Positions 15,390 through 60,265 of a stretch of DNA of 64,000 nt are shown one piece after another (the first letter of the stretch is position 1; each line of letters starts with the position of its first letter). A program made the translations under genes and the position numbers. The stretch covers positions 1-64,000 of the forward strand of contig NZ_AEUX02000003.1 of assembly GCF_000188015.2 (NCBI RefSeq). The letters run 5' to 3'. The notes under the pieces were generated by a model. It did not search any database, was not told the DNA's origin, and saw nothing but the letters and a program-made list of their open reading frames with translations. This DNA is from Streptococcus ictaluri 707-05 (GTDB lineage Bacteria; Bacillota; Bacilli; Lactobacillales; Streptococcaceae).

Positions 15390-15770
15390 TTAGTAAAATA
15401 ATTGCCTTAAATTTTGGGGTGCTATTCCTAAAAAATCAAGAAAAAGGAAAATCGAATATAAAACAAAAAATGCTATTAAAATATTTCCGAAAATTAACCA
15501 AAAATTTCTGATAACTGCTTTTATATCATAAGGTTTATTCTCAATAATCCGTTCCACAGTTTTTTCTGGTTTTTTACCTAATATTAACTGGTCCAAACTG
15601 ACCTCAAAAATAGTAGCCAGTTTGATCAAATTTGTCATATCTGGACATGCTTCATTATTTTCCCACTTGGAAATGGCTTGTCTTGAAATAAAAAGTTGCT
15701 CTGCTAAATAATCTTGTGAAAAATTTTTTTCAAGTCGTAAATGTTTTAACTGCTCTGAAAACTTATTCAT
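15390..15770 (-). CDS. XRE-family regulator with C-terminal membrane segment
   Basis: A 126-residue protein. Residues 1-65 are an XRE/Cro helix-turn-helix (FSQDYLAEQLFISRQAISKW, then SLDQLILG). Residues 85-115 are strongly hydrophobic (one or two helices), so the DNA-binding domain is probably tethered to the membrane. It closely resembles the second XRE-membrane protein at 30484-30936, sharing ISRQAIS.WEN and SLDQLILG. It lies alone between ychF and the DUF951 gene, with no partner gene; its target and signal are unknown. Confidence 0.82.
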   Translation of the reverse strand: MNKFSEQLKHLRLEKNFSQDYLAEQLFISRQAISKWENNEACPDMTNLIKLATIFEVSLDQLILGKKPEKTVERIIENKPYDIKAVIRNFWLIFGNILIAFFVLYSIFLFLDFLGIAPQNLRQLFY

Positions 15771-34800: not shown

Positions 34801-35190
34801 CTATGTCCCCGGGAAGCGAACAGGCTGAGAAGATTTCTTTTTAGTCTTAGACATGGATTTTCGAGAAGGACCAGCAGAGGCTTTCTTTTTATTTTCCTGA
34901 TTCATTTGTTTAACCAATCTTGCCACACGCTCTTTTTCAGCTAAAGCCTGAGTATGAGCTTCTTGTTCTGCTTGACTAGGTTCAATTAAAGTGATGACTA
35001 AATCATGTGATGGAATAGTAATCGTGTCTCCAATTCTGATTTTTTTACCACGTCTTTGTTCTTCTTGGCCATTAAAAAGGACTTGAGTTTCTGCTAAAAA
35101 TCCTTTAATAGCACCTCCACTTTGGATAATTCCGACTTCTTTTAAGAGTGCCTGTAAAGTGATGAATTCAGTAAATAATTTATATTCCAT
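34801..35190 (-). CDS. yaaA: S4-domain protein YaaA
   Basis: An S4-like RNA-binding protein of 129 residues from the ATG at 35190 (GGAG 6 bp upstream); a longer frame to 35214 has no better site. The N-terminal domain ([20 protein letters not shown]) is followed by a lysine-rich tail of about 45 residues ending in [10 protein letters not shown]. It is coupled to recF. A role in 50S assembly has been proposed for homologues. Confidence 0.88.
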
Positions 35191-35360
35191 AATGTTCTCC
35201 AATTTATCATTCAAGTCATTATAGCATAAAAGAAGGGTAAATAATAATCCCTAACCTAACACAATTATAGGAGTTCTTAGGGAGGACACACTTATCATTC
35301 TACTAAGCAGAATAAAAATGGTATAATCATAGAGATTACACTATTTATTAAGGAAACATT

Positions 35361-43532: not shown

Positions 43533-44407
43533 TTATTCTCCAAAAATATCCTTAGTGTATTGGCGTCCAGTTGGTGTAGCTGCGAGCCCACCTTCAGCTG
43601 TTTCCCGAAAGGCAGTCGGCATTGCAGATCCAACTTGGTACATGGCATCAATAACTTCATCTACAGGAATTTGAGATTTGATGCCAGCTAAAGCCATATC
43701 AGCAGCAACAATAGCAAAGCTAGCGCCTAAAGCATTTCGCTTAACACAAGGAACTTCAACTAAACCTGCAACAGGATCACAGATTAATCCAAGTAGATTT
43801 TTAATGACAAAAGCAATGGCTTGACTTGCTTGAAAGGCAGTTCCTCCTGCAGCTTTAACAAGAGAGCAGCTGCACTCATTGCTGATGCGGAACCTACTTC
43901 TGCTTGACAGCCTCCTTCAGCACCTGATATGGAAGCATTGTTCCCGATTACCAAGCCAAAGGCTCCTGCTGTAAATAGGAAGTCAAGTTGTTCAGCTTCT
44001 GTTAACTCTAGTTTATCGATAGCAGTAGCTAGAACAGCAGGTAGACATCCGGCACTTCCTGCCGTTGGAGTCGCACAAACGAGACCCATTTTAGCATTTA
44101 ATTCATTGACAGATATGGCATTTCTAACAGCAGTTAAAATAGTAGTATCTGAAAGACTTTTCCCTTTTTTGATGTATTGATCCATCTTTAAGGCATCTCC
44201 TCCAGTTAGTCCACTAATAGATTTACTGGATGTCAATCCGGTGACAATTGACTCTTTCATGACTTGTAAATTTCGAGACATGATAGCTATAATATCTTCT
44301 CGACTTCGGCCAGTCATTTCTATTTCAGTAGCAATCATTAATTCAGCTACATTTCCGTTAAATTGGTCTTCAGCTTGTTGAACAAGTTCTTCAATGGTGT
44401 AAAACAT
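43533..44407 (-). pseudogene. sdaAA: L-serine dehydratase alpha subunit, frameshifted
   Basis: Normally an iron-sulfur enzyme subunit of about 290 residues that converts serine to pyruvate and ammonia. The frame is sound from ATG 44407 (MFYTIEELVQQAEDQ) through CATPTAGSAGCLPAV and EGGCQAEVGSASAMSAAAL, then shifts at an AG repeat, 43861-43866 on the plus strand, which has three AG units where two would keep the frame. After the shift the rest is recognisable in another frame: VKAAGGTAFQASQAI through LICDPVAGLVEVPC to TKDIFGE and a stop at 43533. The conserved C-terminal cysteine region is lost from the product, so the enzyme should be inactive unless the 2-bp insertion is a sequencing error. 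Confidence 0.88.
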
Positions 44408-56283: not shown

Positions 56284-57700
56284 ATGAAAAAAAACACTTT
56301 TTAGGATGCTTACTCTTTCAGTAGCCTTACTGATATTAGTGGCGTGTGGAAAAACAACCCATCAACCTGAGAAAACCAAGACAAGTACTTCTTCTAAAGA
56401 AGAGGTTGTTTCAGGAGCTTCAGAAAAAACCTATACCGACCCTTCTAAGCTAGCAAAATCATATGACGTGATTATCGTTGGTTCAGGTGGAGCAGGTATG
56501 TCTGCAGCCGTTTCAGCTAAAGATGCTGGTGCTAAAGTTGCTATTTTTGAAAAAATGCCAATTATTGGTGGAAACACAGCCAAATCATCAGCAGGAATGA
56601 ATGCTTCAGAAACGAAGTTCCAAAAGGAGCAAGGAATTGAAGATAGTAATGCTAAATTCTTTGATGAGAGTTTAAAAGGTGGTAAAGGTACTAATAATCA
56701 AGAACTACTTCATTATTTAGTAGACCACTCAGCTTCAGCAATTGATTGGCTAGATACTATGGGCATTACACTTAATAATATTACAACTACAGGAGGAATG
56801 AGTGTTAATCGAACACATCGTCCGTCAGATGGATCTGCTGTAGGGGGCTATTTAGTGGACGGTCTCTATGCAAACGTCAAAGAACGAAAGATTCCGATCT
56901 TTGTTAATGCAGATGTAACTGATATCTTAGAAAATAAAGGAAGTGTTTCAGGGGTTAAAGTTAGTATAGCTGGAGAGACTAAGAAGGTGTCTTCAAAAGC
57001 AGTTGTTCTATCTACAGGTGATGGTATTTTACTAGCAGAAGATGAAGGTGCTGATACGGTTGATATGCAAGAAATTCAAATCCATCCAACCGTAGAACAA
57101 GAATCAGCTTATTTAATCACAGAAGCTGTTCGTGGTGAAGGAGCTATTCTAGTTGATCAAAAAGGACAACGCTTTATTAATGAGTTAGAAACTCGTGATA
57201 CAGTTTCAGCTGCTATTAATAAGTTAAACCCTAACCATGCTTTTGTTATTTTCGACCAAGCCCTTAAATCTCGCGTACCAGCTATTAATCAGTATGAAGA
57301 GAAAAAATTAGTTGTTAAGGCAGATACTATAGAAGCCTTAGCTCAGAAAATAAAAGTTCCTGAAGAGAGTTTGAAAGCAAGTCTTGAAGCTTGGAATCAA
57401 GCTATAGCAAGCCAATCAGATGCTCTTGGTAGAACAACAGGGATGACACATGATCTTAGTCAAGCTCCTTTTTACGCTATTAAGATTGCCCCAGGTATTC
57501 ATCATACCATGGGAGGTTTAAAAATCAATACAGAGACCCAAGTACTGAAAAAAGATGGAACACCTATTGCAGGTCTTTATGCAGCAGGAGAACTGACCGG
57601 TGGTGTACATGGTAAAAATCGTATTGGTGGAAATGCGGTAGCAGACATTATTATTTTTGGTCGTCAAGCAGGTGAGCAATCAGCTAAGTATGTTAAGTAA
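56284..57700 (+). pseudogene. Fumarate-reductase-like flavoprotein lipoprotein, decayed
   Basis: A FAD-dependent fumarate reductase/flavocytochrome c-like protein. It keeps the dinucleotide motif VIIVGSGGAGMSAAVSA, catalytic-type residues in IHPT, ETRDTVSA and GIHHTMGG, and the C-terminal AAGELTGGVHGKNRIGGNA. Two lesions are visible. The ATG at 56284, which follows AAGGGGGA, hits a stop after six codons; removing one base from the A8 or T5 run restores MKKNTFRMLTLSV or MKKTLFRMLTLSV and lipobox LVAC. Near 57013-57020, VLSTG joins directly to DGILLAE, where family members have about 26 more residues (TGGFG to GATGDG). An ATG at 56306 could give a 464-residue product with a shortened signal. 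Confidence 0.78.
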
Positions 57701-57764: not shown

Positions 57765-57935
57765 TTAGTTGGAGTTCGTTAACATTTTGAGGACAAACTG
57801 AGTTAGCTGCTCTGGCGATTCTTTTTTACCACTGGCAATCCATGCTTGACAGATCCCAAAAAAAGCATAAGCAAAGTAAACTGCGCTGTATTCCTTTTCC
57901 ATATTATTGAGGTAATCGGTGTTTAAATTTTTGAT
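57765..57935 (-). pseudogene. TetR-family regulator remnant (C-terminal part only)
   Basis: A 56-residue open stretch ends at the stop 57765-57767 and is open upstream to 57935 with no helix-turn-helix. The translation has the TetR C-terminal pattern VYFAYAFFGICQAWIASGKK, then SPEQLTQFVLKMLTNSN. A TetR gene divergent from yhgE is a common pairing in Firmicutes. Here the N-terminal DNA-binding domain is missing and the promoter region of yhgE follows directly, so the regulator is lost. Confidence 0.7.
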
Positions 57936-57995
57936 TTACTTGTATAATATATTTTATCATAATTTTTGAACACCATGTCCAATTTAGGAGAAAAA

Positions 57996-60265
57996 ATGTT
58001 AGAAGAACTAAAAGCACTTATTAAAAATCCAAAACTTATTATTACTATGATTGGAGTTGCCCTAGTTCCAGCCCTATATAACTTAGCCTTTTTAGGTTCT
58101 ATGTGGGATCCTTATGGTCAAGTAAATCATCTACCTATCGCTGTTGTCAATAAAGATCGGCCAACAAAATATAAAGGTAAAACCTTTGAAATCGGTGACA
58201 ATATGGTGGACAAGATGTCTAAAAATAAAGACTTAGACTATCATTTTGTCAGCGAGAAGGTAGCTAAAAATGGTTTAAGACAGGGTGACTATTATATGGT
58301 AGTAACGTTACCAAAAAATCTCTCTCAAAAAGCCACAACCTTATTAGAGAAAGAGCCTGAAAAACTTGTCGTCTCTTATCAAACCAGTAAAGGTCATGGT
58401 ATGGTTGCCTCTAAGATGGCAGACACGGCCATGCATCAACTTAAAGAAAAGATTGCTACAAATCTGACAGAAAGTTATATTGCCTCTGTCTTTAAAAACA
58501 TGAGGCATCTGCAAAAAGGGCTTAAAAAAGCAAGTAATGGAGCCAGTCAGTTAAATGAAGGGGCACAGGTTGCACAAGATGGTAGTCAAACTTTAACCAA
58601 TGGTCTAAATCGATTCGCAAGTTCTACTCAAACTTTCGATCAAGGAGCTTCTCAATTTTCTAATGGTTTAGTGTCTTATACAGATGGTGTTGGTCAATTA
58701 CACCATGGATTAGGACAATTTTCTGAAAGCATGCCTAGTTACCTAAATGGTGTGACCCAATTAGCCAAGGGAGCTAATCAATTGTCAGATGGGATTAGGA
58801 AACTGGAAGGGGCTACTCAATTACCACCAGAAAAAAACAGGCAATTGAAAGCTTAATTGATGGTTTACCTCAATTAAACCAGGCTATTCAACAATTAAAT
58901 ATGAGCTTATCTCAGACGGGTATGCCATCAGTTGATCAAGGAGATATTAGTCAAAGACTAGCGGCTATAGGAGAACAAGCAAAACAGGTTATTGTTGACG
59001 CTAACATCTAAAATCAGAATGAGCTTAAGGCTCTCCAATCAACGACTACTTATCAAAGTTTGACTCCAGAACAACAAAATGAGCTTAGCTCAGCTTTAAC
59101 TAGTCAAACATCAAATGCCACACTAGCTGCTAAGGAGATCCTGACTAATCTACAGATGATAAAAGAAGGGTTGACAAGTTTGTCAACACAAGATGCTACA
59201 GCTCCGTTTGTCACATTAAAAGAGAGTGTAGCTCAGATAGCTAGCCAATCGAATCAGGCTTTACCAGCCTCAAGTACTGCTTTGCTAGAATTATCTCAGG
59301 GTCTCACAAAAGTACATACAGGTTTGTCTGATCAAGCTTTGCCCGCAACACACCAGCTAGCCAATGGCTTAGTTCAACTAGATGGTAAGAATGAGGCGGT
59401 CTTATCTGGTATTTCTAACCTTTCTAATGGAGCATCTCAACTAAACAATCACACAGGACAACTATTATCTGGGAATAAGCAACTTCTGGAGGGTTCTCAT
59501 CAGTTATCAGGAGCCTCTATTCAATTAGCAGATGGCAGTCAAAGCTTGACAAGTGGATTAACAGCATTGTCAACAGGGTTGACAGAACTAGATCATTCAC
59601 TATCAAAAGCTTCTCAACAATTATCTCTGATTTCTGTTACTAAAGATAATGCGAAAAAAGTGGCAAAACCTCTAACTTTATCTAAGTCAGATACCGATAA
59701 GGTAAAAACGAATGGGATTGCGATGGCGCCATACATGATAGCTGTATCCTTGATGGTAGTTGCTTTATCCACAAATGTTATTTTTGCTAATTCTTTATCT
59801 GGTCGTCCGGTCAATAGCAAATGGGATTGGGCTAAGCAAAAACTTGTCATTAACGGATTTATTTCAACAGTGAGCTCCTTTATTCTTTATTTTGCTATTC
59901 AATTATTAGGATTTGAGGCCAATCATAGCATTAAAACCTTAGCTTTCATTGTCCTTAGTGGATGGACCTTGATGGCACTTGTGACAGCCTTAGTTGGATG
60001 GGACGATCGTTATGGCTCCTTTGCTTCTCTTATTATGCTCTTATTACAAGTGGGTGCTTCGGGAGGTTCTTATCCTATCGAATTAAGCGGAGCCTTCTTC
60101 AGATATTTACATCCCTTTTTACCAATGTCTTATATTGTTTCAGGACTTCGTCAGACTATTTCACTTCGTGGGCATATTGGAACAGAGGTTAGCATATTAA
60201 CAGGGTTCTTAATTGCCTTTATGCTGATAGGTCTAGTGATTTACCGTCCAAAATCAAATGCTTAA
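57996..60265 (+). pseudogene. YhgE/Pip-family membrane protein, frameshift plus stop
   Basis: A large ABC-2-like protein (phage infection protein family) of about 756 codons. The N-terminal part from ATG 57996 (after TTAGGAG) has one transmembrane helix (IITMIGVALVPALYNLAFLG), the middle is a heptad-like NGxxQL repeat region, and the C-terminal part has five helices. The frame shifts at an A7 run (58831-58837); one more A would join the halves as PPEKKQAIESL. The second frame then meets an in-frame TAA at 59009-59011 (DANI-stop-NQNELKA). Two independent lesions make a sequencing error less likely. The C-terminal frame is open from 59012 to 60265. Confidence 0.88.

Follow-up and report, generated by a model that had tools for sequence, protein, structure and literature searches.

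How did a YhgE/Pip membrane-protein gene on a Streptococcus ictaluri contig come to lie broken beside what is left of a TetR regulator, and which of the two was lost first? We address this in a window of 64,000 nucleotides (G000:C6:1-64000), part of a 2.23-Mb genome assembled in 8 contigs with completeness given as 99.98%. The broken gene and the TetR remnant had been described in an earlier note, and reading frames, homology and domain matches confirm that observation. We find that the locus is very probably a recently inactivated pair, descended from an ancestor in which tetR and yhgE stood divergently near rpsD with their control signals between them. In the parts of the literature on YhgE/Pip and related streptococcal genomes available to us, no treatment of this tetR-yhgE locus was found.

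The yhgE/pip gene is read in two frames (Table 1). The N-terminal frame runs from the ATG at 57996 to a TAA at 58854-58856; homology resumes in another frame up to about 60256, the stop of which lies at 60263-60265. In tblastn, intact relatives used as queries align to the gene in frames +3 and +2. The switch of frame falls within 58817-58853, an interval that contains the run of seven A residues at which the earlier note had placed the break, and the TAA that it had reported as interrupting the second frame is borne out by sequence and tblastn alike. Its estimate of a gene of about 756 codons agrees with the 2270-nt span. None of 11 relatives carries an A run longer than four in the segment compared (relatives with longer or less similar yhgE middle regions are left out), the A7 run being special to the window's yhgE. 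Both pieces score above their family cut-offs, more than chance would give, the TIGR03062 score having been measured on 59060-60262; the two domains are not in one open frame, being separated by the switch and the stop. The window's yhgE is a broken copy and no working member of the YhgE/Pip family.

Table 1. Features of the tetR-yhgE locus (positions are those of the window)
Feature	Position	Strand	Evidence or remark
TetR_C_8-type regulator, C-terminal remnant	57765..57902	-	Pfam TetR_C_8; alignment with relative
Junction region of the deletion of about 440 bp, best placed near 57923/57924	57899..57929	.	TetR homology, blastn, landmark distance
Place of yhgE -35 hexamer (GTTTAA in window, TTG core in relatives)	57921..57926	+	comparison, 10/10 relatives
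Retained yhgE -10 TATAAT, TGTATAAT in window	57943..57948	+	TATAAT at matching place in 27/27 tetR-yhgE loci
Retained operator-like site near yhgE start, GAACACCATGTCC, putative second TetR site	57968..57980	+	alignment with relatives
Shine-Dalgarno-like AGGAG ahead of yhgE ATG 57996	57986..57990	+	sequence; similar in relatives
yhgE/pip, whole span	57996-60265	+	2270 nt
yhgE/pip N-terminal piece, 286 codons + stop	57996..58856	+	TIGR03061 198 bits, cut-off 96.15
A7 run at frame switch, lesion 1	58831..58837	+	sequence, tblastn, relatives' segment
In-frame TAA of downstream frame, lesion 2, poorly conserved position	59009..59011	+	sequence, tblastn
yhgE/pip C-terminal piece including membrane domain	59012..60265	+	TIGR03062 202.7 bits, cut-off 102.2

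The pieces resemble the family members Lactococcus Pip and E. faecalis PIP_EF in passing both terminal-domain cut-offs and in sharing the heptad repeats, stretches of which were recognised in the window's YhgE by profile search. An identity as type VII secretion protein EsaA was rejected (TIGR03929 scores 101.8 bits, below its cut-off of 122). The label "transporter" comes from Pfam ABC2_membrane_3, and a transport role of YhgE is putative on that family label. A second intact yhgE was sought in the genome and rejected: the TIGR03062 search returns a single match, at the window's locus, and the two YhgE matches that a genus-wide search gives for this genome both lie there. A similarity search with the C-terminal piece counted a second match in the genome, absent among the matches listed.

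Of the regulator, 45 amino acids can be read from an ATG at 57902 on the reverse strand, the open frame to the previous stop comprising 56 residues. The Pfam TetR_C_8 score is 37.3 bits (cut-off 26.1), for a partial match over profile positions 62-102 of 103. The reduction of TetR to its C-terminal 56 residues holds as first described. The remnant aligns to residues 127-177 of an intact 177-aa relative with 63% identity. In that relative the N-terminal helix-turn-helix domain gives a TetR_N match of 30.6 bits; in the window, according to the alignments, it is deleted. The remnant shares with the TetR_C_8 regulators that diverge from yhgE in other streptococci the C-terminal end of the domain and the place, whereas its DNA-binding N-terminal domain and start region are gone. 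As candidates for an intact tetR elsewhere in the genome, three other TetR_C_8 matches were dismissed at 24-26% identity to the intact relative's TetR.

What removed the rest of the regulator? From a landmark in TetR to the TATAAT the window measures 107 bp, compared with 546-550 bp in each of the 10 relatives measured; hence about 440 bp (439-443 bp) are missing. TetR protein homology to three relatives stops at 57923, and in blastn against the three closest relatives homology on the left ends at 57899 or 57929 while that on the right begins at 57924. A MAFFT alignment assigns the last 25 or so left-side bases elsewhere in tetR, and a family search carries the TetR match past stop codons as far as 57968 (profile positions 38-102), beyond what the DNA comparison supports. 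The junction of the deletion is best placed near 57923/57924, with the exact base uncertain. Lost with the deletion were TetR residues 1 to about 126, including the DNA-binding domain, and the tetR start region, together with the operator-like palindrome on the tetR side and the TTG of the yhgE -35. In all 10 relatives checked that hexamer is separated by 16 bp from TATAAT; in the window it reads GTTTAA. The -10, the second operator-like site, the ribosome site and the yhgE start codon were kept.

Relatives of the window provide the intact state. Two samples of loci were compared, each species being represented by one genome. The first consists of the 20 loci whose yhgE ranks highest in similarity, the window's own locus set aside. 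All 20 have an open yhgE with a divergent TetR adjoining it. In 18 of them rpsD is found on the far side of TetR at a distance of no more than 1.6 kb, in some cases behind an intervening small gene; L046, where the contig ends, and L049 differ. The second sample consists of 15 loci ranking high by dnaB similarity (G015, G058 and G243 are left out, though ranked higher than the lowest of the 15). Seven carry the pair near rpsD (L060, L062, L064, L069, L070, L071 and L072); in three genomes, G203, G193 and G012, yhgE is found elsewhere on the contig, the tetR-yhgE pair of G193 being that of L049. Three more (G213, G071, G078) have a TetR without this yhgE near rpsD, and two (G159, G283) have neither gene there. 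Relatives thus do have the divergent tetR-yhgE pair in intact form, mostly close to rpsD, which is the comparison that the earlier note had proposed. Together with the single TIGR03062 match and the low identity of the other TetR_C_8 proteins, it supports the view that a regulator-transporter pair has been lost. A separate scan of contigs returned one distant relative alone, a Ruminococcus.

The loci with a TetR alone are like the window in lacking an orthologous intact yhgE at the same place, but unlike it in that they encode a complete TetR of 178-180 aa and have no yhgE there. The TetR promoter region is followed immediately by a DUF1304 gene in G071 and G078 (L063:11304-12323, L066:5602-6664); in G200 (L060) the DUF1304 gene comes after yhgE. 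Genus-wide, a YhgE-like match is found in 267 of 284 genomes and in none of the remaining 17, which include G159; G071, G078, G213 and G283 retain more distant YhgE-like matches, with best E values of 1e-85 to 1e-92. In a single-gene tree of 33 dnaB sequences (L046 and L048, which lack dnaB, and the duplicate L049 left out), the five yhgE-lacking relatives and the window stand on different branches, most nodes nearby being weak (support 0.0 to 0.79). G159 and G213 group together, with weak support, and a single loss of yhgE may account for both. Loss of yhgE has likely recurred in this group, in a number that the tree does not firmly count, and judging by the gene content of these loci it does not need prior loss of the regulator.

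The region between the two genes is conserved in the intact loci. Across L038-L072 the pattern includes a TTG -35 with a 16-bp spacer in each of the 10 loci checked, TATAAT in 27 of 27 tetR-yhgE loci and, about 50 bp before it, an operator-like palindrome with the core GACA-N3-TGTC in 22 of the 27 (absent in L050, L055, L056, L057 and L072). The interval scored for the palindrome begins at the TetR HTH codons and extends 200 bp beyond the annotated start of tetR; shuffled versions of each interval contain the core at most 2 times in 200, though the loci are related and the cases not independent. We infer that these palindromes are TetR operators. Some of the loci have a second, weaker operator-like site near the yhgE start. 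Among the three loci with a TetR alone, the core is missing from two and sits at a different place in L061. A regulon marked by the palindrome was also looked for across the window's genome and not supported: 10 forward and 10 reverse matches with one mismatch stand against 5 and 7 in a reversed control, which is no convincing excess because several matches are the two strands of one palindrome. The locus's own match in this search, at 57966-57983, lies over the second operator-like site.

The break in yhgE seems to be young. Columns otherwise invariant across 22 intact relatives were taken as the measure: over the last 215 residues of the C-terminal piece the window's yhgE departs from 0 of 97, and over the first 180 of the N-terminal piece from 3 of 65; similarly diverged intact sequences (L045, L046, L062) show 2 to 7 such departures. 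Since the conserved residues of the pieces are largely kept, the inactivation looks recent, and by this measure yhgE looks to have been under selection until lately, or to be intact in nature. Among the 35 best rows of the yhgE search (E <1e-160), 34 are open frames of 735-866 aa and the window's alone is split (488); the shortest open frame of these, that of G193, covers query residues 8-704 of 767. Within the same 35 rows, then, the relatives' orthologues are open at the same locus and lesions are confined to the window.

The sequence of events can be put together from these comparisons. In the ancestor a TetR regulator would have adjoined a YhgE/Pip membrane protein, divergently and near rpsD. 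The target of TetR probably lost its value or turned into a liability, for instance as a route of phage entry, and both genes would have been freed from selection. Comparison with the relatives shows that a deletion of about 440 bp took away the TetR N-terminal part, tetR start region, palindrome and -35 TTG, and yhgE carries a frame switch and a stop, which leave full-length YhgE unreadable even with ribosome slippage at the A run. Three events are required: deletion, frame switch and stop. As to their order, the earlier note had suggested that loss of repression might have preceded inactivation. This order does not follow from the comparison, as the deletion also hit the yhgE -35 and TetR persists without yhgE in three relatives. 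Because both the -35 TTG and the tetR-side palindrome were removed, the deletion was not a clean de-repression; it struck the predicted yhgE promoter as well as the repressor, and may itself have weakened or silenced yhgE instead of de-repressing it. An extended -10 can function without a -35, and the surviving -10 may drive some residual yhgE transcription. It is possible that the repressor was lost first and yhgE afterwards, but the persistence of TetR where yhgE is gone, in three relatives, indicates that the opposite order also occurs. This is ordinary gene loss, and the result a routine pseudogene pair.

A further question is whether the loss was selected. Infection of E. faecalis by phage requires PIP_EF (EF0858), an 888-aa protein conserved across E. 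faecalis strains and implicated in DNA entry, and phage selection there yielded frameshift, nonsense and IS mutations in its gene, according to the portion of that study available to us (PMC4999554). Phages that use YhgE/Pip for DNA entry could likewise have driven repeated inactivation in streptococci, a reading compatible with recent inactivation of the pair. The absence of orthologous yhgE near rpsD from five relatives on different branches of the single-gene tree speaks for it. Genes are, however, also lost repeatedly without selection, the tree support is weak, G159 and G213 may share one loss, and other YhgE-like genes, though more distant ones, are still present in G071, G078, G213 and G283; moreover, escape from phage leaves the damage to the regulator unexplained. 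The window's yhgE frame is broken twice, and a role in phage infection is known for some members of the family, PIP_EF among them. We know of no Pip-dependent phage described in Streptococcus. Phage-driven loss of yhgE may be called a fair hypothesis here, but we regard such selection as unlikely to be the explanation. We are similarly doubtful that, across the group, yhgE/pip was lost repeatedly under phage pressure by differing routes, namely clean removal of yhgE, with TetR left to drive a DUF1304 gene, loss of the pair, or, in the window's case, a deletion hitting both the repressor and the promoter of its target along with lesions in yhgE itself. In pneumococcus, a gene of the YhgE/PIP family is listed at 2.65 after cigarette-smoke extract in the portion of the report available to us (PMC6200755).

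Recent inactivation of the pair does not reflect a general decay of the region, which was considered and rejected. In a survey of 75 syntenic loci at contig positions 1156-96631 (51 in the window, 24 beyond), five have a single-frame coverage of 0.27-0.63, and three of these are truly broken or cut: yhgE, tetR and the gene for L-serine ammonia-lyase alpha. Apart from the tetR-yhgE pair there is one clear frame break among the 75. The low coverage at 34807-35226 reflects a longer frame in one relative (0.99 in the others), and a 135-aa relative covers about 54% of the short gene at 15552-15770. We count as intact two loci at 69820-71681, which had been flagged in two frames but reach a coverage of 0.97-1.0 in one. 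The alpha gene (43536-44407, reverse strand) switches frame between 43892 and 43871, where there is no homopolymer; it encodes 290 aa in all five relatives compared, and the adjoining beta gene is intact. Both of its halves match TIGR00718 and SDH_alpha, each alone falling below the TIGR00718 cut-off. We take the pseudogene level of the contig as ordinary; for S. iniae QMA0248, the part of the report that we could consult gives a total of 68 pseudogenes, with stops or frame shifts behind 14 (PMC9176272). Between rpsD and the TetR remnant, a flavocytochrome c-like gene (56306-57700, forward strand) lacks about 29 residues near residue 236. Among 59 genomes searched, 9 have close homologues of it (62-79% identity, 499-535 aa), which match in two pieces with extra sequence between, and in G004 and G057, which have no YhgE match, a homologue lies about 2 kb from dnaB.

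Could the frame switch and the stop be artefacts of sequencing or assembly, the gene being intact in the organism? One lesion does lie within a homopolymer, and the retention of nearly all conserved residues, with a near-absence of missense decay, fits a gene intact in nature. Against this stand two yhgE lesions of differing kinds with the 440-bp deletion adjoining them, the completeness and low contig number of the assembly, and 45 A/T runs of at least 7 inside 44 intact genes of the window (syntenic intervals of the contig survey), none of which is broken. A general homopolymer error is unlikely, and we consider artefact improbable as the explanation of the locus, although each of the two point lesions might reflect misassembly or a polymorphism of one strain. 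That the gene is split but working, by assembly of the N-terminal piece with a reinitiated C-terminal piece (AGAAGGG lies 9 nt ahead of a TTG at 59180 in the C frame) or by slippage at A AAA AAC (58832-58838), which we take to be a textbook -1 slippery heptamer in the N frame, is very improbable, for although the downstream frame is the -1 frame, the TAA at 59009 sits in it, so that slippage alone would give a truncated product and restoration of full YhgE by frameshifting is blocked, and all 11 relatives read in one frame through a segment without such an A run.

Recent inactivation of an ancestral divergent pair remains the reading that we prefer, and the value of the locus is comparative. 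The deletion falls on the control region of a conserved divergent tetR-yhgE locus. YhgE is a widespread membrane protein whose function is little understood; as yhgE seems to have been lost repeatedly among relatives, species that lost it can be compared with those that kept it to test that function and a possible role in phage entry in streptococci. If phage pressure did act here, the locus would document natural escape from Pip-dependent phages.
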